DNA from: a virus
IMG/VR virus record: IMGVR_UViG_3300033571_003152
Span: 1-22,967 of that record
Strand: one strand, 5' to 3'
DNA: 22,967 nt
The translations under genes and the position numbers were made by a program. A model generated the notes under the pieces. The model did not search any database. It saw only the letters and a list, made by a program, of their open reading frames with translations, and had not been told where the DNA came from. This document shows positions 3,235-14,214 of this stretch, in pieces (position 1 is the first letter of the stretch; every line of letters begins with the position of its first letter).

Positions 3235-6200
3235 ATGGCAAATGTACAAATAACCCAATTACCTAACGCGGGTGCAATAACAGGCACCGAAGCAGTACCC
3301 ATAGTACAAAATGGCGTAACCGTTCAAACAACAACAGCCGCGCTTGCAGGTGCTCCTACTTTAACAGCATCATTTTTAGAAGTTAGTAACTCTGTTACAA
3401 CACCAAACTCAAGATTTTTTGCGGTAGGTTCAGGATTAACCACAACTGATGGTGGAGCCGCGAGTTCATTTACAGTTAGTTTAACAGGTGCATTAGCTAA
3501 TTTAAATACACTAGGTAATGGTCTTGTAGCAAAAACAAGCACAAGTGTTCTCGCAAATAGAACAATTACAGCAGGTACTGTAGGCTTATCACTCACTAAT
3601 GGTGATGGTGTATCAGGTAATCCAACAGTTAGTCTTACAGGATTACCATTAAGTTTAGCTCAATTAACAGGATCAGGTATCCTTACATACAGTGGTTCTA
3701 CATTTAATCCGCGCACAATTACAGGTACCTCAGATCAAATTACAGTAGCTAATGGTACAGGGGTTAGTGGTGATCCAACTATTTCTATTACAAGCAATCC
3801 AATACTACCAGGTACAGGATCAGTCACTGTTCCTATTGGTACAACAGGTCAAAGACCCGTAGGAAATAATGGACAGTTAAGATATAACTCAACTACGGGT
3901 AATTATGAAGCTTACAGTGGTGGTTCATGGCAACAATTTACTGTTGGTGGTGTTCAAACATTTAGCGCAGGAAGCACAGGATTACAACCGTCATCTCCAA
4001 CGTCAGGTACAGTAACGCTTAGTGGTACATTAAACGTATCAAACGGCGGAACAGGAGCTACGACATTAACAGGTTATGTATACGGTAATGGCACATCAGC
4101 TATGACTGCATCAACCACAATCCCAAATACAGACATTACAGGTTTGGGAACAATGTCAACTCAAAATGCAAGCTCTGTAAATATTACAGGAGGATCTCTT
4201 ACAGGAGTAACAGTAACCACAGGATCAATTAACGACACTCCAATTGGTGCAACAACACCATCTACAGGAGCGTTTACATCATTAACATCTAATGGTGTTG
4301 GAGTAGCAACAGCTTCAAGTACAACCACATTTACTAACAAATCAATTGATGGATCAACTAATACACTAACAAATATTCCTAATTCAGCATTAGTTTATAG
4401 CTCACTGACAGTTAACGGAACTACAATTTCATTAGGTGGAACAGGAACAATCAGCTCAGTATTGGGTGGTGCTTTAACTGTAGGTACAGGATTACAATAT
4501 AACAGTGGAACTACTTATGATGGATCAACACCAAAAACAATTTCGATTGATTCAACTGTTGCTACGCTTACGGGGTCTCAAACTCTTACGAACAAGACGT
4601 TAACATCACCTGTAATTTCTACTATTACAAATACAGGTACATTAACTTTACCAACATCTACTGACACATTAGTCGGTCGCGCGACTACAGATACACTTAC
4701 TAATAAATCTATCAGTGGATCTACGAACACATTATCTAACATTGGTAATTCATCACTAACAAATAGTTCTGTCACTATCAATGGATCTACAATTAGCTTG
4801 GGAGGAACTGCAACAATTACTGCGGTTAATCCAAGTGCATTAACTATTGGTACAGGATTAACAGGAACATCTTACAACGGATCTTCTGCTGTCACTGTTG
4901 CAATTGATACATCTACTGTAGCCACATTAACAGCGGCACAAGTATTAACAAACAAAACAATTGATGCAGGTTTAAATACATTAAGCAATATTCCTAATAG
5001 CGCATTAACAAATAGCACAATTACTATTGGTACAACTCCTGTAGCACTTGGTGGTTCTACATTAACACCTGCAGGATTAACTTCTGTTACAGTTACACAA
5101 AATCCAACACTAGATTTACAACTAGCAACAAAAGCATACGTAGACGCTGCTGTTTCTAATGTTAATTATCACGAACCCGTTGAAGTAGCTTCTACAGTAG
5201 CTTACACAGTCACTTATAACAATGGTGCATCAGGGGTGGGAGCTACACTTACAAATGCAGGAGCACAAACAGCGCTTGTAGTTGATGGTGTCACAATGAC
5301 TGCAACAGATGTAACAAACGCTACTCGTATCTTAATTAAAAACCAAGCAAGTGGCGCACAAAACGGCGTATATGTACTAACCAATCAAGGATCAGCATCA
5401 ACTAATTGGTCTATGGTTAGATCCACAGACATGGATACAACAGGTGCAGGATCCAATAATGTAGGGCCAGGTGATACATTCTATGTTATTGCAGGAACTT
5501 CACAAGCCACAACAACATGGGTTCAAACTACTAAAAATCCTATCACTATTGGAACTACAGCACTTGTATTTACACAAGTAGGCGGTCCTTCAGGTGGTTA
5601 TACATGGGGAACAGGATTACAACTTATAGGATCTACTGTAAGTATTTCAGATACTACAGTGACTGCAGGTGCTTACACTCTTGGTAACTTTACAGTTAAT
5701 GCGCAAGGTCAATTAACCGCTGCTTCTTCTAGCGCAACTACAGGTACAGGCAATGTAGTCTTATCTACATCTCCAACATTAGTTACACCTAATCTTGGAA
5801 CTCCAACATCAGCCACATTGACTAATGCAACAGGATTACCAATCAGTACAGGCGTAAGTGGTTTAGGTACAGGTGTAGCAACATTCTTAGCGACACCATC
5901 ATCACTTAACTTGCTTAATGCAATGACTGATGAAACAGGCACAGGTTCTCTCGTATTCGCTACATCACCTACTTTAGTGACGCCTGTTTTAGGTACACCA
6001 ACTTCAGTGACATTAACTAATGCTACAGGACTTCCTTTATCCACAGGGGTTACAGGAACACTTGGAATTGCTAATGGTGGTACGGGTCAAACAACAGCGG
6101 GAGCAGCGTTTAATGCATTAAGCCCAATTACTACAACAGGTGACTTAATCATTGGTACAGGCGTTAATACCGCAAGTAGGCTTGGCATAGGAACAAACGG

Positions 6201-6726
6201 TTATGTATTGACGTCTAACGGTACAACCGCAACATGGGCGGCTACATCAAGTGGTGTAACTTCATTTAGTGCAGGAAGCACGGGATTTACCCCATCAACA
6301 GCTACAAGTGGCGCTGTTACTTTAGCAGGAACTTTAGCTACTACTAATGGCGGTACAGGCTTAACATCATTTACAACTAATGGTGCAGTTTATGCCACAG
6401 GAACATCAACATTAACTACAGGTACACTTCCTGTAACAGGTGGTGGTATTGGTGTAGCAACATTAACAGGTGTAGCTTATGGTAATGGTACATCGGCATT
6501 TACAGCGGCAACAGGATCACAAATTGCTACAGCAATTGGTACAGACGCTGTAACAAACGCAACAAATGCAACAAATACAGCGATTACAACAGGTTCAGCA
6601 ACCACAAATTACTTGACTTTTGTAACCGCAACAACAGGTAATTTACCACAACTAACCAATACAGGATTAACCTATAACGGCACTACAAACGCAATTACAG
6701 GTGGTATTAGTGGTGGAACTTTCTAA
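3235..6726 (+). CDS. large repetitive tail fibre protein
   Basis: 1163 residues, rich in Thr, Ser, Gly and Asn, and nearly devoid of Cys. The N-terminus (ANVQITQLPNAGAITGTEAV, residues 2-21, up to about 60) resembles virion-attachment segments of aquatic phage fibres. Then come long beta repeats: TLTNKT/TLTNKS units at about residues 360-620, and a globular-looking domain at about 640-785 (KAYVDAAVSNVNYHEP, RILIKNQASGAQNGVYVLTN). Two SPTLVTPxLGTP-type units follow at about 840-950, then NGGTG units. It ends in ITGGISGGTF, a tail shared with the fibre at 14856. Such repeats are typical of trimeric fibre shafts. It is separated from the next fibre gene by 35 bases. Its receptor is not predictable. 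Confidence 0.88.
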   Translation: MANVQITQLPNAGAITGTEAVPIVQNGVTVQTTTAALAGAPTLTASFLEVSNSVTTPNSRFFAVGSGLTTTDGGAASSFTVSLTGALANLNTLGNGLVAKTSTSVLANRTITAGTVGLSLTNGDGVSGNPTVSLTGLPLSLAQLTGSGILTYSGSTFNPRTITGTSDQITVANGTGVSGDPTISITSNPILPGTGSVTVPIGTTGQRPVGNNGQLRYNSTTGNYEAYSGGSWQQFTVGGVQTFSAGSTGLQPSSPTSGTVTLSGTLNVSNGGTGATTLTGYVYGNGTSAMTASTTIPNTDITGLGTMSTQNASSVNITGGSLTGVTVTTGSINDTPIGATTPSTGAFTSLTSNGVGVATASSTTTFTNKSIDGSTNTLTNIPNSALVYSSLTVNGTTISLGGTGTISSVLGGALTVGTGLQYNSGTTYDGSTPKTISIDSTVATLTGSQTLTNKTLTSPVISTITNTGTLTLPTSTDTLVGRATTDTLTNKSISGSTNTLSNIGNSSLTNSSVTINGSTISLGGTATITAVNPSALTIGTGLTGTSYNGSSAVTVAIDTSTVATLTAAQVLTNKTIDAGLNTLSNIPNSALTNSTITIGTTPVALGGSTLTPAGLTSVTVTQNPTLDLQLATKAYVDAAVSNVNYHEPVEVASTVAYTVTYNNGASGVGATLTNAGAQTALVVDGVTMTATDVTNATRILIKNQASGAQNGVYVLTNQGSASTNWSMVRSTDMDTTGAGSNNVGPGDTFYVIAGTSQATTTWVQTTKNPITIGTTALVFTQVGGPSGGYTWGTGLQLIGSTVSISDTTVTAGAYTLGNFTVNAQGQLTAASSSATTGTGNVVLSTSPTLVTPNLGTPTSATLTNATGLPISTGVSGLGTGVATFLATPSSLNLLNAMTDETGTGSLVFATSPTLVTPVLGTPTSVTLTNATGLPLSTGVTGTLGIANGGTGQTTAGAAFNALSPITTTGDLIIGTGVNTASRLGIGTNGYVLTSNGTTATWAATSSGVTSFSAGSTGFTPSTATSGAVTLAGTLATTNGGTGLTSFTTNGAVYATGTSTLTTGTLPVTGGGIGVATLTGVAYGNGTSAFTAATGSQIATAIGTDAVTNATNATNTAITTGSATTNYLTFVTATTGNLPQLTNTGLTYNGTTNAITGGISGGTF

Positions 6727-7965
6727 TTTATGTTAAACTTTACGCATCAAAGGAATTAACTATGGCACAAACAGGATATACCCCAATACAACTTTACTAT
6801 AGCTCCACAGCTACTAATATTCCAACTTCAGGAAATTTAGTGAGCGGAGAATTAGCGCTTAATATTGCTGACGAAAAGCTATACTTTAAAAATGCTTCAG
6901 GTACAGTTAAATTGCTTGCGTCTAACGCATCGACTGTGGATGGTGTAACTGTTGGAACAACTACTGTTACAAGTGGTACATCAGGATATATTCTTTACAA
7001 TAATGCAGGTACCCTAGGAAACCTAGCAACGACAGGAACAGGTAATGTGGTATTAGCAACCTCACCTACATTAACTACACCTAATTTAGGTACACCAAGT
7101 GCTATTACACTAACAAACGCAACAGGCTTACCTCTTACTACAGGTGTAACAGGCACGCTAGGTGCTACCAATGGCGGTACAGGAACAGCGACATACGCTA
7201 CAGGTGATACACTTTACGCATCAGCATCGAACACATTATCTAAACTTACTATCGGTACAAGCGGTCAAGTGCTTACTGTTTCAGGCGGTGTTCCAACATG
7301 GTCAACACCTGCATCTACAGGATTAACTGTAGGTTCAACATCAGTCACAAGCGGTACAAACGGATACATCTTATACAACAACGCAGGAACTTTAGGTAAC
7401 CTTGCTACTACAGGTTCAGGTTCTGTTGTTCTAGCAACATCACCAACATTAGTGACTCCTGCGCTAGGAACTCCTTCTTCAGGTACACTTACAAGCTGTA
7501 CAGGTCTTCCATTAACTACAGGCGTAACAGGTACATTAGCTATAGCCAATGGTGGTACAAATATTACTACTTACACAACAGGCGATATACTTTATGCATC
7601 CGCTACAAACGTATTATCTAAACTAGCTGTAGGTACTAACGGTCAAGTATTAACATTAGCCTCAGGCATTCCTTCATGGGCAACTGCAAGTGGTGGTGTA
7701 ACAACTATCAGCTTTGGTTCTACAGGTCTTACGCCATCAACCGCAACATCAGGAGCTGTTTCTGTAGCAGGTACACTAGCCGTAGCAAACGGAGGAACGG
7801 GTGTGACAACATCAACAGGTACAGGAGCAGGCGTTCATGCAACATCTCCAACACTTGTAACCCCCGTATTAGGCACACCAACTTCTGTAACACTTACAAA
7901 CGCAACAGGTCTTCCATTGTCAACAGGTGTGACAGGAACCCTTCCTGTAGGTAATGGTGGTCTTG
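5740..7965 (+). repeat. fibre repeat family shared by two adjacent genes
   Basis: Five copies of a unit encoding SPTLVTPxLGTPxSxTLTN followed by ATGLPLSTGVTGTL lie at roughly 5740-5865 and 5935-6090 in the first fibre gene and 7033-7185, 7410-7560 and 7816-7965 in the second. The copies keep the protein pattern but differ widely in third codon positions. They give two adjacent genes blocks of homology that could support recombination or domain shuffling. Confidence 0.8.
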
Positions 7966-8702
7966 GTATTACAACTACACCAACAAACGGTCAAATTCCA
8001 ATTGGTAACGGTACAAATTATACAGCCGCAACTTTAACTGCAGGCACAGGTATCACAATCACCAACACATCAGGTGCAATTACAATTACAAACTCAGCGT
8101 CAGGTACTGTAACGCCTTTTAATAACAGAGTATATAACTCTTCACAAACTTACACACCGTCATCAGGATACAAATATATTTATGTTTCATTGTCAGCACC
8201 TGGTGGTGGCGGTGGTGGTATTGCTAATTTTGGGCAAGGTACAGGCGGTTCAGGCAATGCAGGATCATCCGCAACATTTGGATCCTTTATTACATGTAAC
8301 GGAGGTGGTGGAGGTGCGGGTTCCGTAAATAGTACCACAGGAAACACAGGTAGCACAGGTAACGCTTCTTACAATGCAGGTATTACACTTGTTTCAGCTA
8401 ATGCTACAACAACAGCTACAAACGGTGTCATTACCCTAAACACAGCAGGTGGTGGTAGTGGTGGTGGTGGATCACGAGCATATTATGAAGGTTGTCAAGG
8501 TTGGACCGGTGGAACAGGAGGTTCAGGAGGAAGAATGGTTGGTTTAGCAAACAGTGCAACGATTGGAAATTCAGGTATCTCCATCACTATTGGAACCGCA
8601 GGTAACGGAGGCTCTAACAACCAAAATGCCTACGCACAATTTTGTGATTTGGCAAGTGCAGGTAATATTGGACAATGTCTTATTACGGAATTTTTTGCTT
8701 AA
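6762..8702 (+). CDS. tail fibre/adhesin with glycine-rich tip
   Basis: 646 residues. An AAGGAA Shine-Dalgarno sequence sits just before the ATG at 6762. The N-terminal domain (residues 1-52: QLYYSSTATNIPTSGNLVSG, then ELALNIADEKLYFKNASG) is the short module found at the N-terminus of many fibres and in Mtd-like proteins. Residues about 60-455 are shaft repeats related to those of the preceding gene, including a 126-residue tandem duplication. Residues about 455-646 form the tip. It has LSAPGGGGGG, GGGGGAGS and GGGSGGGGS loops, scattered aromatics and four cysteines, as in T-even gp38-type polyglycine adhesins. The tip is the likely receptor-binding part. The gene is followed within four bases by the oxygenase island. 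Tip function rests on composition, not on a search. Confidence 0.88.
   Translation: MAQTGYTPIQLYYSSTATNIPTSGNLVSGELALNIADEKLYFKNASGTVKLLASNASTVDGVTVGTTTVTSGTSGYILYNNAGTLGNLATTGTGNVVLATSPTLTTPNLGTPSAITLTNATGLPLTTGVTGTLGATNGGTGTATYATGDTLYASASNTLSKLTIGTSGQVLTVSGGVPTWSTPASTGLTVGSTSVTSGTNGYILYNNAGTLGNLATTGSGSVVLATSPTLVTPALGTPSSGTLTSCTGLPLTTGVTGTLAIANGGTNITTYTTGDILYASATNVLSKLAVGTNGQVLTLASGIPSWATASGGVTTISFGSTGLTPSTATSGAVSVAGTLAVANGGTGVTTSTGTGAGVHATSPTLVTPVLGTPTSVTLTNATGLPLSTGVTGTLPVGNGGLGITTTPTNGQIPIGNGTNYTAATLTAGTGITITNTSGAITITNSASGTVTPFNNRVYNSSQTYTPSSGYKYIYVSLSAPGGGGGGIANFGQGTGGSGNAGSSATFGSFITCNGGGGGAGSVNSTTGNTGSTGNASYNAGITLVSANATTTATNGVITLNTAGGGSGGGGSRAYYEGCQGWTGGTGGSGGRMVGLANSATIGNSGISITIGTAGNGGSNNQNAYAQFCDLASAGNIGQCLITEFFA
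6951..7706 (+). repeat. 378-bp tandem duplication inside the adhesin gene
   Basis: Unit A (6951-7328) and unit B (7329-7706) each encode 126 residues beginning VG(T/S)T(T/S)VTSGT(S/N)GYILYNN. The spacing of the landmark ACAAG(T/C)GG sequence (6969 and 7347) is exactly 378 bases. In the identical stretch YILYNNAGTLGNLATTG, 13 of 17 codons differ synonymously between copies, so this is not a recent duplication. A third, degenerate unit follows. Confidence 0.85.
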
Positions 8703-8705
8703 TCA

Positions 8706-9341
8706 ATGCAAGAAATTAAGATAGAACTTATACAAGATCCATTCCCTCACGCCATTATAAGAAATTTTTATAATAAAGAAGAACTCTCTTTAATTTGGAG
8801 AGAGCTTGACTTTTACACATCCCCATCAAAATTAGTGGATGCAATGTCTTTACTTGGAGCTATGGATCCAAAAACTCTACTACCATTACCAAAACATTAT
8901 GGCATTGATTTAGATCGTGTTCATGCAAGTAAACGTGAAATATCTGACATACTGACATTAAACAGAAAAATCTTTGATCCATCTATTACCAACACTCTCC
9001 TACAATTAAGTCCATTAATTTGGGATCTAAAGCAAATTAATGCTGACTTCACAAAAATAAAATATTATGAAGATGGGGAGTATTATAAATCTCATACGGA
9101 CAGAGCAAGGTTTACTTTTTTAACTTATTTGTATAAAGAACCAAAATCTTTTATCGGTGGAGATTTGTATTTTAAAGAATTTAATTATACAATCCCAATT
9201 CAAAACAACACCGTTGTATTTTTTAAAGGGTGCATAGAGCATGAATCCACAGACATTAAAATGACAGATCATATTAATGAAAAATTTTCAGGATATGGAA
9301 AATATACAATTACTCAATTTTTAGATATAAGGGATACTTAA
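8706..9341 (+). CDS. 2OG-Fe(II) dioxygenase, first of four
   Basis: 211 residues. The C-terminal half has the double-stranded beta-helix signature of prolyl-hydroxylase-like oxygenases. Iron ligands are H130 and D132 (KSHTDRARFTFLTYLY) and H179 (KGCIEHEST). K199 in GKYTITQF is the probable 2-oxoglutarate carboxylate anchor, where many phage members have Arg and collagen-type prolyl hydroxylases have Lys. The reaction expected for the family is oxidation (often hydroxylation) of a protein, nucleic acid or small-molecule substrate with 2-oxoglutarate and O2. The substrate is unknown here. The N-terminal 110 residues are family-specific. It starts four bases after the adhesin stop, suggesting linkage to fibre or surface modification. 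Base composition is AT-richer than in the fibres. Confidence 0.85.
   Translation: MQEIKIELIQDPFPHAIIRNFYNKEELSLIWRELDFYTSPSKLVDAMSLLGAMDPKTLLPLPKHYGIDLDRVHASKREISDILTLNRKIFDPSITNTLLQLSPLIWDLKQINADFTKIKYYEDGEYYKSHTDRARFTFLTYLYKEPKSFIGGDLYFKEFNYTIPIQNNTVVFFKGCIEHESTDIKMTDHINEKFSGYGKYTITQFLDIRDT
9329..9333 (+). promoter_or_regulatory. Shine-Dalgarno sequence supporting an ATT start at 9343
   Basis: AAGGG lies inside the end of the preceding oxygenase gene with nine bases between it and ATT 9343. The alternative start ATA 9334 would directly abut it, and no in-frame ATG, GTG or TTG occurs between the stop at 9328-9330 and a coding-like N-terminal region. Confidence 0.5.
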
Positions 9342-9342
9342 A

Positions 9343-9837
9343 ATTAATATACAAGTTTTTAGAAATTTTTTAAGTAGTAGTGATTTAGATTATATAGAAA
9401 AGAAGATACTCGAGCCAAAATGGTCTTGCAATCATTCGTCAACAGAAAATGGCTCTTTATTTTGGCAAATGAGTGATTTAGAGAATGATGAGTTTTTTTC
9501 TGAATATCTATTAAATAAGATTAAAGAAATTACAAAAGAAAATTTTACAATTGAACGCATTTATTTTAATGGTCACAATGCATGTAGCCAAGGTTATCCA
9601 CATAAAGATTCAGAACAAGAAAATGGACGAACATTTTTAATTTATTGTAATAGGTCTTGGGATTTAGCTCTAGGAGGGTCAACTAACATCATTGTTGATA
9701 ATGAGGTTCAGTCATTTTTTCCATACCCAAAGTCAGCAATATATTTTAAAAATAACTATTTTCATTTAGCAAGCCCTATAAGCAAAGACTTTAAGGGAGT
9801 TAGAGTTACATTAGCTTTTAAATTATACAAGATATAA
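9343..9837 (+). CDS. 2OG-Fe(II) dioxygenase with probable non-ATG start, second of four
   Basis: The first in-frame ATG is at 9469, but the frame is open from 9331, and the extra upstream residues (INIQVFRNFLSSSDLDYI, then EKKILEPKWSC) look like the usual N-terminus of short phage oxygenases. I place the start at ATT 9343 (164 residues); ATA 9334 is the alternative. In that numbering the iron ligands are H87 and D89 (GYPHKDSE) and H141 (NYFHLASP), with R154 (GVRVTLAF) as 2OG anchor. It lacks a long N-terminal domain, as many phage members do. It sits between the first oxygenase (start overlapping its RBS region) and the zinc-ribbon gene (one-base overlap). A sequencing error that removed an ATG cannot be excluded. 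Substrate unknown. Confidence 0.78.
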   Translation: MNIQVFRNFLSSSDLDYIEKKILEPKWSCNHSSTENGSLFWQMSDLENDEFFSEYLLNKIKEITKENFTIERIYFNGHNACSQGYPHKDSEQENGRTFLIYCNRSWDLALGGSTNIIVDNEVQSFFPYPKSAIYFKNNYFHLASPISKDFKGVRVTLAFKLYKI

Positions 9838-10013
9838 TGGAAGACCGTTTTATAGAAGAAAGGTTGCGCATCTGTAAGCAATGTCCTAAAGTAAAAGAAG
9901 CTTTAGGTGTTATGCAATGTGATGTTTGTAAATGCGTAATGAATATAAAAGCAAGATTTGAAAAAAGCCAATGCCCACTTGGAAAATGGCCAATTAGAAA
10001 AGGTAAACCTTAA
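9837..10013 (+). CDS. 58-aa zinc-ribbon protein (DUF6171-like)
   Basis: This short gene starts in the TAATG overlap with the oxygenase and stops at TAA 10011-10013, two bases before the next ATG. Its six cysteines are C13 and C16 (CKQC), C28, C31 and C33 (CDVCKC) and C46 in SQCPLGKW. This matches my memory of the small CxxC...CxxCxC...CPLGKW proteins of large phages annotated as DUF6171. A structural zinc-binding role is likely; partner and function are unknown. The minus-strand frame over it is a shadow. Confidence 0.8.
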   Translation: MEDRFIEERLRICKQCPKVKEALGVMQCDVCKCVMNIKARFEKSQCPLGKWPIRKGKP

Positions 10014-10015
10014 AA

Positions 10016-10552
10016 ATGAAATATAGTATATTCCATACATCCCATTGTGGATCCACTTTGTTATCTTGTTTGTTAAGTAAATCATTGCCTACACTGACTG
10101 AACCCTCATGGTCTCATGAGGCAAAAAGTTTTTTAGATTTAGATGAAAAAGTAGATTTTGTAAAAAAACATCATCAAGATAATTACTTGGTTAAATATCC
10201 AAGCACGTTAACCGACGTCATTCCTCATATGGAAGGTAAAAAAATTTTCCTGTATAGAAATTTTGAAGATCATATAAGAAAAATGATAGCAATAAAAATT
10301 GAAGGCGATTACCTTGTACAACAAGATGGAGTTTTTTGGTCGCAAAGATTTTTATGGGCATGTGTATCTCAAGATACTATTTTTATGCAATCGGATTTTT
10401 TATTCAATAATCAACAAGACGCAGCTAGAATTGCTTGTGAACATTTTGGTGTGGAGTATGTTCCTGTAGAAAATATAAATTTTCATGTAAAAGAAAAGGG
10501 GTATAACCATCAAGACGAACCAATTAATTTAGATAAAAATGATATTGCATAG
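10016..10552 (+). CDS. sulfotransferase-like P-loop protein
   Basis: 178 residues. The N-terminal beta strand and loop YSIFHTSHCGSTLLSCLLS (residues 3-21) matches the 5'-phosphosulfate-binding loop pattern (xxSGSTxL) of PAPS-dependent sulfotransferases. EPSW (29-32) follows at the usual place. KKIFLYRNFEDHIRKM (residues 75-90) corresponds to the 3'-phosphate-binding strand, with R81 as candidate contact. The protein is shorter than most sulfotransferases (usually above 250 residues), and the canonical Ser after the Arg is not obvious, so the transfer activity is uncertain. The family would move sulfate from PAPS to a hydroxyl or amine. A PAPS-forming kinase homologue lies two genes downstream, which strengthens the call. 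It overlaps the next gene by 14 bases. Confidence 0.72.
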   Translation: MKYSIFHTSHCGSTLLSCLLSKSLPTLTEPSWSHEAKSFLDLDEKVDFVKKHHQDNYLVKYPSTLTDVIPHMEGKKIFLYRNFEDHIRKMIAIKIEGDYLVQQDGVFWSQRFLWACVSQDTIFMQSDFLFNNQQDAARIACEHFGVEYVPVENINFHVKEKGYNHQDEPINLDKNDIA

Positions 10553-11090
10553 AGGCTCTTTATCTATTGAAGATAAAAAAGCCATATATTTGGCTGTAGA
10601 AGAAGAGAATTTGTTTCCTTGGTATTGGCAAGAAAAAACAATTAATAAAGAGGATATTTATCAATTAGGTGGATTTTCGCATTTCTTTTTTAAAGAACTA
10701 GAAATAACATCTAAAAAGTATTTTTATCTAGTTAAAATAATTTTAAAAGAACTTATTACAAAAGAAGAAATTAAAAATAAAATTAAATTTAAAAACATTA
10801 TAAGAGCACAAGCAAATTTTATATGTAATGTTGAAAACGATGAAAAAAATACTATACATATGGACTTTAAAAATGAAAATTATTTTTCAATTGTATATTA
10901 CGTTATAGATTCTGATGGGGATACATTAATTTACAACGAACAAAAAGATATAATTGATAGAGAATCTCCTAGAGCAGGTCATTATATTATAATTAAATCA
11001 AATCAATTGCATGGCGTACAAACTCCAAAACATCACAAAAAAAGAATTGTTTTTAATATTGTACTTTCAGGTGAAATTGTAAATTCATGA
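10539..11090 (+). CDS. 2OG-Fe(II) dioxygenase, third of four
   Basis: 183 residues. Iron ligands are H107 and D109 (NTIHMDFKNENYFSIVYYV) and H158 (NQLHGVQTP); R169 (KKRIVFNIVL) is the 2OG anchor. GDTLIYNE precedes the distal His as expected. The N-terminal motif ENLFPWYWQEKT (residues 23-34) is characteristic of a phage and cyanobacterial subgroup. The gene is notably AT-rich: the 60 bases from 10741 contain only six G or C. It overlaps the sulfotransferase-like gene by 14 bases and the kinase gene by four (ATGA), so these three are probably translated together. Substrate unknown; the pairing suggests a shared target or sequential reactions. Confidence 0.85.
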   Translation: MILHRGSLSIEDKKAIYLAVEEENLFPWYWQEKTINKEDIYQLGGFSHFFFKELEITSKKYFYLVKIILKELITKEEIKNKIKFKNIIRAQANFICNVENDEKNTIHMDFKNENYFSIVYYVIDSDGDTLIYNEQKDIIDRESPRAGHYIIIKSNQLHGVQTPKHHKKRIVFNIVLSGEIVNS

Positions 11091-11512
11091 AAATACTAAT
11101 CATGGGTTTATCGGGCTCAGGAAAGTCTGAATTAGCCAAAGAATTACATAGTTTGTTTCAAGAGCATGAAATGTCATCCACAAGAATCAACGGAGATGAG
11201 GTAAGACAGTCCTATAGAGATTGGGACTTTAGCCCTGATGGAAGATTAAGACAGGCAGAAAGAATGGCTCGATTAGCTAAAAAAAGCGATGCTCAATTTG
11301 TGATAGCTGACTTTATAGCTCCTACAAAACAAATTAGAGACATTTTTAGTCCTGATATGTTAATATGGCTTGATACTGTGAAATCTAGCAAGTATACTAA
11401 TACAGATGTGGTTTTTCAAAACCCAAAGAATTACCAATTTAAAATAAACAAAAAAGATTCAAAAAAATGGGCTAAAACCATTTTTGATAAAATAAACAAG
11501 GATTTATCATGA
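11087..11512 (+). CDS. adenylylsulfate (APS) kinase-like P-loop kinase
   Basis: 141 residues. Walker A is GLSGSGKS (7-14). INGDEVR (34-40) replaces the CysC motif LDGDNxR. DFSPDGRLRQAERMARLAKK (47-66) matches the CysC segment that follows it, and FVIADFIAPTKQIRD (71-85) matches the second conserved block. KYTNTDVVFQNPKNYQFKI near the C-terminus fits short CysC-like proteins. Canonical APS kinases are about 200 residues and have a basic lid (KARAGxIKxFTG); that lid is missing here. The expected reaction is APS plus ATP to PAPS, the donor for sulfotransferases such as the homologue upstream. An alternative is a CysC-like kinase acting on another substrate. It overlaps both neighbours by four bases. 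Confidence 0.8.
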   Translation: MKILIMGLSGSGKSELAKELHSLFQEHEMSSTRINGDEVRQSYRDWDFSPDGRLRQAERMARLAKKSDAQFVIADFIAPTKQIRDIFSPDMLIWLDTVKSSKYTNTDVVFQNPKNYQFKINKKDSKKWAKTIFDKINKDLS

Positions 11513-11913
11513 AAAATGCTTTAATTAACCCTACAGATTTAGTTGATGGAAAACCTATTGTAGTTGATGTTCAAGACACTCAATATGAAACATCTACTCA
11601 ATATTTTTGGGTTCCATGTGATGATACTGTTCAAATCCATTATCTTTATGATAACGGAGAGTTTTTACCACCACCATTACCAACGGTTGATGAATCTAGT
11701 AATGATGAATACATCAAAGATTGGGCTATTAGAAAATTAAGTTATACGGATTGGGTTGAAATTCCAAGTGTTGGTGATATTAACAACACGCCACATCTTG
11801 TAAACAAAGATGAATTTATAGCATACAGAAATGAATTAAGAAAAATAGCTTTAAACCCAAGTTTATTTACAGGCACTATGCCTCCAAAACCTCAGGAGCA
11901 ATGGTCTAATTAA
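11509..11913 (+). CDS. tail fibre assembly chaperone-like protein
   Basis: 134 residues, soluble and acidic. The C-terminal part has the pattern of phage tail assembly chaperones (XkdW/DUF4376 type). This part includes IRKLSYTDWVEIP, then a spacer, NKDEFIAYRNELRKIALNPS, then a proline-rich end (MPPKPQEQWSN). The middle (YFWVPCDDTVQIHYLYDNGE) suits a small beta domain. These proteins help fold or trimerise tail fibres, and their genes usually sit next to the fibre they serve. Here about 2.8 kb of oxygenase and sulfation genes separate it from the adhesin at 6762. It overlaps the kinase by four bases and the next oxygenase by one. Confidence 0.7.
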   Translation: MKNALINPTDLVDGKPIVVDVQDTQYETSTQYFWVPCDDTVQIHYLYDNGEFLPPPLPTVDESSNDEYIKDWAIRKLSYTDWVEIPSVGDINNTPHLVNKDEFIAYRNELRKIALNPSLFTGTMPPKPQEQWSN

Positions 11914-12524
11914 TGGAAAATCAAGAGATTCAAGATAATCAAGAAATTAAATGCTCGTTTAAAGATTTTATTGGTATTTTTGAAGGTGCTGTTCCTGATA
12001 CATTATGTGACCGTATAATTGAAAAATTAAATTTGCATATGGATCAACACCCTTCCGAAGTAAGAAATGGTAAGACTCAATTTAAAAACCAAGAAAACGG
12101 AAGAAAAGATTACTCGGTTTTTGCTAATAAAATTTGGGGTGGCATATGTTTAGAAATAAATGAAGCGCTAGATAAATGCGCTCAAGCATATTCAGATGAG
12201 TTTTTTACAATAAAAAACCTTGCTCAACTAAGGTCTGATGAAATAAAAGTACAGTTAACTCCTCCTCGAGGTGGTTATCATGTTTGGCATTGTGAGCAAG
12301 CATCAAAAGAAGTTGCCGATAGAGTTCTTGTTTGGACAATATATCTAAATGATATTCCTAACGGAGAAGGTGAAACAGAATTTTTATGGCAAGGTATAAA
12401 ATTACAACCTAAAAAAGGATTGGTGTGTATTTTTCCTGCGGCATTTACACATACACATAGAGGTAATCCTGTGTATTCTTGCGATAAATATATAGCAACA
12501 GGTTGGTATAATTTTAATGAGTAA
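11913..12524 (+). CDS. 2OG-Fe(II) dioxygenase with HxE motif, fourth of four
   Basis: 203 residues. A prolyl-4-hydroxylase-type core occupies residues about 105-203. H126 and E128 (VWHCEQA) form HxE rather than HxD; H182 (THRGNPVYS) is the distal ligand; K192 (DKYIATGWYNF) is the 2OG anchor. GETEFLWQGIKLQPKKG is the usual strand before the distal His. Members with this WHxE and HRGNP pattern are common beside fibre genes in aquatic phages. A structural-protein or surface-glycan substrate is possible but unproven. It differs clearly from the three upstream oxygenases, so the four are not recent duplicates. A T8 run follows its stop without a stem. Confidence 0.85.
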   Translation: MENQEIQDNQEIKCSFKDFIGIFEGAVPDTLCDRIIEKLNLHMDQHPSEVRNGKTQFKNQENGRKDYSVFANKIWGGICLEINEALDKCAQAYSDEFFTIKNLAQLRSDEIKVQLTPPRGGYHVWHCEQASKEVADRVLVWTIYLNDIPNGEGETEFLWQGIKLQPKKGLVCIFPAAFTHTHRGNPVYSCDKYIATGWYNFNE

Positions 12525-13767: not shown

Positions 13768-14214
13768 ATGCGTGTTTCAAGTGAAGGACTTAGGCTTATT
13801 AAGCACCATGAGGGCGTTAGAGCAAAGCCTTACAAAGATTGTATTGGCTTATGGACAGTTGGAGTTGGTCACCTTATTGGCAACGGCAAGTCTCTTCCTG
13901 ACGCTTGGGATAGAGTACTTACTTTAGATGAAATAGATGCGCTCCTTGTACGGGATCTCAATAGATTTGAAAGAGGAGTTGCTTTGCAACTTCCTGTGTC
14001 TCTTAGACAATGTGAATTTGATAGTCTTGTGTCTTTTGCTTTTAACCTTGGTTTGGGCACACTACAAAGATCAACCCTCCGTCAAAAGATCCTTAGAGGC
14101 GATAAAAAGGGCGCTTCAGAACAGATTTTAAGGTATAATAGGGCAGGCGGGAAGATTGTAAAAGGTCTTGTAAAACGTCGTAACGATGAATATCAATTAT
14201 TTTTACGAGGTTAA
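13768..14214 (+). CDS. endolysin, GH24 T4-type lysozyme
   Basis: 148 residues, typical for the P22/T4 lysozyme family. Catalytic residues are E15 (IKHHEG), D24 (YKDCIG) and T30 in LWTVGVGH. C-terminal family features include FDSLVSFAFNLGLGTLQRST and a basic end, GLVKRRNDEYQLFLRG. It hydrolyses the beta-1,4 bond between MurNAc and GlcNAc in peptidoglycan. There is no N-terminal signal or SAR-type hydrophobic segment, so release should depend on the holin upstream. It begins directly after the holin stop and ends three bases before the adaptor gene. Confidence in the family is high. Confidence 0.93.
   Translation: MRVSSEGLRLIKHHEGVRAKPYKDCIGLWTVGVGHLIGNGKSLPDAWDRVLTLDEIDALLVRDLNRFERGVALQLPVSLRQCEFDSLVSFAFNLGLGTLQRSTLRQKILRGDKKGASEQILRYNRAGGKIVKGLVKRRNDEYQLFLRG

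Follow-up and report, generated by a model that had tools for sequence, protein, structure and literature searches.

A tail-fibre-linked phage cassette of 2-oxoglutarate oxygenases, a minimal sulfotransferase-like protein and an APS-kinase-like protein as a candidate hydroxylation-sulfation module

The IMG/VR virus record IMGVR_UViG_3300033571_003152 (22,967 bases, analysed in full and called here the window) holds at positions 8706-12524 an island of eight overlapping or almost touching plus-strand genes, which encode, in this order, two 2-oxoglutarate (2OG)-Fe(II) oxygenases (oxy1 and oxy2), a zinc-ribbon-like protein, a sulfotransferase-like protein (ST), a third oxygenase (oxy3), an adenosine 5'-phosphosulfate (APS)-kinase-like protein (kin), a probable fibre chaperone and a fourth oxygenase (oxy4). 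All eight members of the gene string that the original prediction had placed behind an adhesin gene are present there, on one strand. Comparison with related stretches (labelled L004, L017 and so on) revealed that the combination of ST, kin and oxygenase genes is not due to chance, and we propose, with a probability of about 0.52, that it forms a hydroxylation-sulfation module, expressed late and coupled to the tail fibre, whose main acceptor is the fibre protein. That the module performs some form of sulfation based on 3'-phosphoadenosine 5'-phosphosulfate (PAPS) is a proposition that we hold to be fairly likely.

Linkage of oxygenase, sulfotransferase and kinase genes

Scans of the viral collection with ST, together with the ST genes found in kin loci, gave 38 distinct viral ST loci. 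A 2OG oxygenase gene lies no more than two genes upstream of ST in 37 of them (immediately upstream in 34) and kin no more than two genes downstream in 27, and the order oxygenase-ST-(oxygenase)-kin is maintained across divergent lysis and tail genes. The oxygenase that directly adjoins ST is in most loci oxy2; oxy3 is an optional insert between ST and kin, missing from most ST loci.

An independent test was done with 49 kin-bearing viral records lacking a window-type ST, which were searched for the canonical sulfotransferase family PF13469. The family was found in 25 of the 49 records, in 24 over the cut-off, and these 24 genes lie 0.2-6.3 kb from kin (median 2.7 kb), 22 of them upstream. Lysozyme-anchored control records from the window's kind of phage, which differ from the kin records in phage type, gave 0/49. 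The linkage needs no outside control, since the proximity of PF13469 to kin holds inside large records, where the distance stays small (0.7 kb in a 372-kb record) and the combined chance over six lineages is about 1e-6. When kin proteins were clustered at 70% identity, 11 of 25 clusters had a PF13469 partner; with the canonical sulfotransferase as anchor, kin appeared downstream in 29 of 80 loci, six with gaps under 80 bp, a fraction biased by an anchor query built from kin-linked members. These canonical partners keep the textbook LPRSGSTLL and R...S PAPS motifs, and among solved structures they come closest to protein-tyrosine sulfotransferases (6e-13). In L046 a virion structural protein, a tail-fibre-like protein, a canonical sulfotransferase, one further gene and kin follow each other, and L034 is similar. 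Co-occurrence far above chance, on which the original prediction had staked itself beforehand, was thus shown twice, with different types of sulfotransferase.

Sulfotransferase and cysC-like genes are usually classed as metabolic add-ons in phage surveys. Their repeated pairing with each other and with fibre genes points to donor supply and transfer serving one modification linked to host recognition. If this is true, the receptor-binding proteins of many uncultured phages carry chemical modifications that fibre expression and sequence-based prediction of host range would miss. The 49-record comparison turns the idea into a concrete, testable module.

Proteins of the cassette

The CysC-like nature of kin was borne out by several lines of evidence. 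The protein passes the Pfam APS_kinase cut-off (46.3 against 21.1 bits), all of its 141 columns were aligned with CysC sequences by hhalign (E 5e-17), and the first 40 Protein Data Bank (PDB) matches retrieved by Foldseek with its AlphaFold2 model (38 relatives; model confidence, pLDDT, 95) are all APS kinases, the best with template-modelling (TM) scores of 0.75-0.86. On this ranking of structural matches, a reading of kin as a nucleotide-salvage kinase was rejected. The catalytic core is invariant or almost so among the 38 relatives, with kin keeping Walker A, D37 and R40 of the (D/N)GDxVR motif, F48 and R53, and in the lid an aromatic-TxTD..F..P segment aligns with FTGID..YE.P of CysC and retains the aromatic residue Y102. 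In APS kinase structures the adenine of APS is sandwiched between two aromatic residues; because both are retained, the nucleotide-binding logic of kin appears to be kept. By sequence and fold kin is an APS-kinase homologue, for which the conversion of APS to PAPS is a predicted activity.

The idea that kin is restricted to this module was discarded, as relatives occur in 405 viral stretches. Some of them, of about 245-286 amino acids (Table 1), are fused to a CTP_transf_like nucleotidylyltransferase (cytidylyltransferase-like) domain, including proteins of cultured Casjensviridae phages and of Stenotrophomonas phage DLP_6. Such a fusion might act as a compact PAPS synthase or else activate another group.

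For the much more divergent ST, an AlphaFold2 model (20 relatives; pLDDT 92) retrieved from the PDB tyrosylprotein sulfotransferase (TPST), including a structure with PAP and peptide, SULT and 3-OST, with TM scores of 0.4-0.6 and E below 1e-3, and among the viral structures of BFVD the first three matches are annotated as sulfotransferases. Moreover, the relatives L020, L026 and L027, 43-45% identical to the window ST, pass the PF00685 cut-off. Across 28 members of this short family (161-252 amino acids) the invariant residues are H7-T8-S9-C11-G12-S13-T14, E29-P30, K60, S63, F78 and W108, where Glu29 stands at what we take to be the place of the catalytic Glu of Stf0 and TPST. Since the profile-profile match between the window-type and the canonical family is confined to a local C-terminal segment (67% probability), membership in the sulfotransferases rests on transitivity. 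Altogether, ST is best described as a divergent, minimal sulfotransferase with a predicted catalytic activity, and its donor pocket, like that of kin, deviates from the textbook.

Cellular homologues of ST were found in three Prochlorococcus single-cell genomes (L118:5883-6641, L119:8001-8762 and L123), where they are rare (2/121 family genomes); in the two genomes inspected they are lone genes of about 253 amino acids, with neither kin nor a 2OG-ST pair adjacent.

The four oxygenases announced for the island were all confirmed as such. Two of them, oxy1 and oxy4, pass the cut-off of Pfam PF13640, and oxy2 (0.004) and oxy3 (2e-5) match it weakly but are backed by phrog_274 (Table 1), to which oxy1 and oxy4 have weak matches as well. 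In alignments with relatives, the metal motif HxD/E...H is invariant within each of the four families, oxy4 carrying the HxE form (H126-E128-H180/H182), and the basic residue that is the candidate for 2OG binding is R in oxy2 and oxy3 and K in oxy1 and oxy4. Among solved structures, the oxy4 profile matches prolyl 4-hydroxylases at 2.5e-9, the nearest relative of oxy2 is the prolyl hydroxylase OGFOD1 in a weak match (E 0.001), and the oxy1 profile has no match. The phrog_274 label 'DNA endonuclease V' was treated as a family label only, its members being 2OG oxygenases by motif; judging by the match to oxy2 and oxy3, with their intact HxD...H...R, this label is likely an annotation error. No ATG, GTG or TTG precedes position 9469 in oxy2. 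Because coding similarity extends to the oxy1 stop in the window as well as in L004, and the junction AAA ATT AAT AT(A/T) is conserved (window 9339-9345; L004 about 5885-5896), oxy2 likely starts with AUU at 9343, immediately after that stop.

The island (Table 1) is placed between a 646-amino-acid glycine-rich fibre gene, fibreB, and the lysis genes, with small genes filling the interval from oxy4 to the lysozyme, and its GC content is 27-32% against 37-41% for most of the flanking sequence. Megablast and tblastn searches of the region and of ST against the INPHARED phages gave no match. A zinc ribbon had been announced as part of the island, and a DUF6171-like gene is indeed there (26 bits against a Pfam cut-off of 27), but it was rejected as a core component since among ST loci it is present only in the window and L021.

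Table 1. Features of the fibre-to-lysis region of the window, and fused relatives of kin in other stretches
Feature	Position	Strand	Evidence and remarks
fibreB, glycine-rich tail fibre/adhesin	6762..8702	+	phrog_31660 tail fiber 3e-4; C-terminus ...LITEFFA; anchor gene of the cassette
oxy1, 2OG-Fe(II) oxygenase	8706..9341	+	PF13640 4e-7 (over cut-off); phrog_61 2e-18; H130-D132-H179 invariant
oxy2, 2OG-Fe(II) oxygenase	9343..9837	+	phrog_274 1e-27; H87-D89-H141-R154 invariant; probable AUU start
Zinc-ribbon-like small protein, DUF6171-like	9837..10013	+	PF19668 1e-5 (just below cut-off); phrog_13558 3e-13
ST, minimal sulfotransferase-like P-loop protein	10016..10552	+	AlphaFold2 pLDDT 92; motifs HTSHCGSTLL, EPSW, KYPS, YR....K
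oxy3, 2OG-Fe(II) oxygenase	10539..11090	+	phrog_274 9e-24; H107-D109-H158-R169
kin, APS-kinase-like P-loop kinase, shortened lid	11087..11512	+	PF01583 6e-12; AlphaFold2 pLDDT 95
Probable tail-fibre assembly chaperone	11509..11913	+	phrog_4697 0.0015; homologues at same site in relatives
oxy4, prolyl-4-hydroxylase-like 2OG-Fe(II) oxygenase	11913..12524	+	PF13640 5e-10 (over cut-off); phrog_61 2e-45
Phage lysozyme	13768..14214	+	PF00959 1e-34; downstream boundary of the variable site; control anchor
Fused kin relatives	L048:8001-8804, L083:3307-4167, L094:7992-8729, L096:8001-8732		

The fibre as the proposed acceptor and the alternatives

Most genes upstream of the cassette encode fibres, whose C-termini fall into three or more unrelated types; the C-terminal motif of fibreB, [IV]TEFF[AG], is also found in L004, L014, L017 and L021. 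A comparison of the window with the L017 contig is especially informative: the window genes g1817, g2890, g13004 and g13276 and the lysozyme, which lie on both sides of the site, are 94-99% identical in amino acids, against 49-68% for the span of fibre tip, ST, oxygenases and chaperone (ST 49, chaperone 49, oxy1 64 and oxy2 59%) and 89% for kin. The fibreB tip has diverged in L017 and L004, and the distant backbone remains similar. With a nearly identical flanking backbone and a far less similar cassette and fibre tip, the comparison shows that the cassette turns over jointly with the tip and its chaperone. Both ST and kin are clearly under purifying selection, with ratios of nonsynonymous to synonymous polymorphism (pN/pS) of 0.14-0.26 and 0.09-0.17, respectively. 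The chaperone of the original prediction has no Pfam match and a weak phrog_4697 score, but homologues occur at the same site in L004, L014, L017 and L021, and related proteins in L167, L203 and L204. The two fibre genes at window positions 3235-8702 are built for the most part from repeats (TNATGLPLSTGVTGTL and others like it) that recur in both proteins and in other phages and are a likely substrate for recombination.

In the mechanism that we propose, kin would phosphorylate host-made APS to PAPS, and ST, a stripped-down sulfotransferase, would transfer the sulfate from PAPS to the acceptor, while the oxygenases would add hydroxyl groups to residues of this acceptor or of its neighbours, oxy4 having the homology of a prolyl 4-hydroxylase and presumably a corresponding substrate. 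The acceptor would most likely be the fibre or adhesin encoded directly upstream, and less likely a host surface glycan. A protein acceptor is favoured because the nearest solved relatives of oxy4 and of the canonical partner sulfotransferases modify protein. In this way, the chemistry and charge of the fibre tip might be tuned for receptor binding, with the cassette swapped along with the tip and its chaperone; gene position suggests late expression. The original prediction of the fibre as target thus gains from the linkage, the swapping and the protein-modifying relatives, with the acceptor itself a matter of inference.

Several observations weigh against this proposal. The window ST stays below every cut-off and matches no Pfam, PHROGs or NCBIfam family, so that the predicted sulfotransferase is recognised through its relatives and structural matches but not by itself, and the Foldseek matches are interspersed with P-loop kinases such as Fap7, adenylate kinases and shikimate kinases. 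Of the PAPS pocket, the canonical partners keep their motifs and the window-type family keeps an invariant C-G-S-T in its 5'-phosphosulfate-binding loop, but the Arg/Lys position of that loop varies (H in 19 of the 28 members, Q in 5, F in 2, R in 1 and L in 1), the Arg of the 3'-phosphate (R81) is present in 24/28 and lost in 4/28, and the Ser position of the 3'-phosphate-binding site is Lys in almost all of them. In kin, which scores far below the NCBIfam apsK (TIGR00455) cut-off (43 against 138.7 bits) and is about 30 residues shorter than APS kinase in an end-to-end alignment, the APS-binding Asn is replaced by an invariant Gln56 and the lid helix (of KGLYKKARAGE..FTGID) is absent, in the roles that we take these elements to have in APS kinase structures. 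Moreover, kin is missing from nine ST loci whose sequence continues past ST, and in the eight kin-less ST records tested no APS kinase was found anywhere in the record, so the predicted combination recurs as a unit but kin is not universal in it; the kin-less loci would need host PAPS. Finally, the unrelated types of fibre tip beside the cassette show no evident common acceptor sequence, their composition in Tyr and Pro gave no acceptor signal, and some relatives of kin have glycosyl- and carbamoyltransferase genes as neighbours, as would suit a glycan acceptor.

In this regard, the same PAPS-ST chemistry could be directed at a host surface glycan or lipid, where late sulfation of the receptor would stop progeny from sticking to debris or exclude rivals. 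We regard this reading, the chief competitor of the fibre model, as unlikely. Such a target would account for a cassette shared by unrelated fibre tips, for the kin relatives lying beside carbamoyltransferase, heptosyltransferase-family, FkbM methyltransferase and glycosyltransferase genes in L039, L059 and L084, and for the sulfotransferase of cyanophage S-SRM01, which adjoins a glycosyltransferase and a nucleotide-sugar epimerase. However, the window island has no glycosyltransferase, four oxygenases and a fibre chaperone suit a protein substrate better, the nearest solved relatives (prolyl 4-hydroxylase and protein-tyrosine sulfotransferase) act on protein, and the late position within the structural operon also argues for the fibre. 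The clusters of L039 (3550-8456) and L059 (4551-8420) contain a sulfotransferase, a glycosyltransferase-9, a NodU-like carbamoyltransferase and kin, L039 also an FkbM methyltransferase, and resemble Nod-factor-type glycan decoration.

The variable content of the fibre-to-lysis site in related phages (0-4 oxygenases, methyltransferase, cupin, radical S-adenosylmethionine (SAM) and chaperone genes) would also fit independent accessory genes gathered in a cargo site, with separate substrates and only a late operon in common, but the fixed order oxygenase-ST-kin over divergent backbones and the recurrence of the ST-kin linkage with unrelated sulfotransferases make this improbable. Even less probable, in our opinion, is that kin is a 3'-kinase of another nucleoside-diphosphate-X, like Campylobacter Cj1415, and that ST transfers a different group. 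The fused cytidylyltransferase-like domains, the changes in the kin lid and at its Asn/Gln position and the deviations of the ST pocket would be compatible with such a donor, and Campylobacter Cj1415-1418 do make CDP-phosphoramidate 3'-phosphate (PMC11800397). On the other hand, 24/49 records pair kin with a canonical PF13469 protein whose PAPS motifs are of the textbook kind, among them records with the fused form such as L048, L073 and L083, and the window island holds no nucleotidyltransferase.

Taking the fibre module as the preferred reading, a bolder and doubtful extension would be that phages use a dedicated cassette, exchanged horizontally and supplying its own PAPS, to add sulfate and hydroxyl groups to their own receptor-binding fibres and thereby tune host range, and that its site is a general hot spot of fibre modification, as suggested by the radical-SAM/oxygenase set of L143. 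At the same site in this sister phage (L143:1257-6781) there are three short fibre-like proteins ending in CNCACNC/CNCNCNC, two further proteins, three 2OG-like oxygenases and a radical SAM enzyme (PF04055 1.6e-7), possibly a maturation of fibre peptides similar to that of ribosomally synthesized and post-translationally modified peptides.

Comparison with known systems

Compared with APS kinase (CysC or the PAPSS kinase domain, PF01583), kin is alike in fold, core residues and lid segment, and differs in its shortening, missing lid helix, Asn to Gln change and low apsK score. Among sulfotransferases (PF00685/PF13469), the nearest named ones are TPST1/2, with which ST shares the GST 5'-phosphosulfate loop, the C-terminal segment and the Foldseek matches, and from which it differs by its length, its variable loop Arg/Lys residue and the Lys replacing the 3'-phosphate Ser. 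The profile match of oxy4 to bacterial prolyl 4-hydroxylase (3itq, 5hv0) covers the length of oxy4, the latter having HxE instead of the HxD metal motif. The pathway for the O-methyl phosphoramidate (MeOPN) of the Campylobacter capsule (Cj1415-1418, Cj1421/1422), where Cj1415 is a CysC homologue, likewise has a kinase step giving a 3'-phosphonucleotide group donor for surface decoration; the window lacks its glutamine kinase, hydrolase and nucleotidyltransferase, whereas the MeOPN pathway lacks oxygenases and fibre linkage.

A literature search with little coverage of subscription journals and preprints gave no published description of the oxygenase-ST-kin-fibre combination. Phage sulfotransferases as such are already known, and it is the full combination with oxygenases, kin and fibre that was not found described. 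Those of cyanophages S-SKS1 and S-SRM01 and of OM43 phages were reported by authors who called their role unclear (PMC10580990), and cyanophage S-SCSM1 also has one. Within the stretches examined of S-SKS1 and S-SRM01 no kinase is annotated, and the sulfotransferase subfamily differs from the window ST; these enzymes are nevertheless phage-borne and of the PF13469 type, and the gene of S-SRM01, as in the window, has a long tail fibre gene and a 2OG oxygenase nearby.

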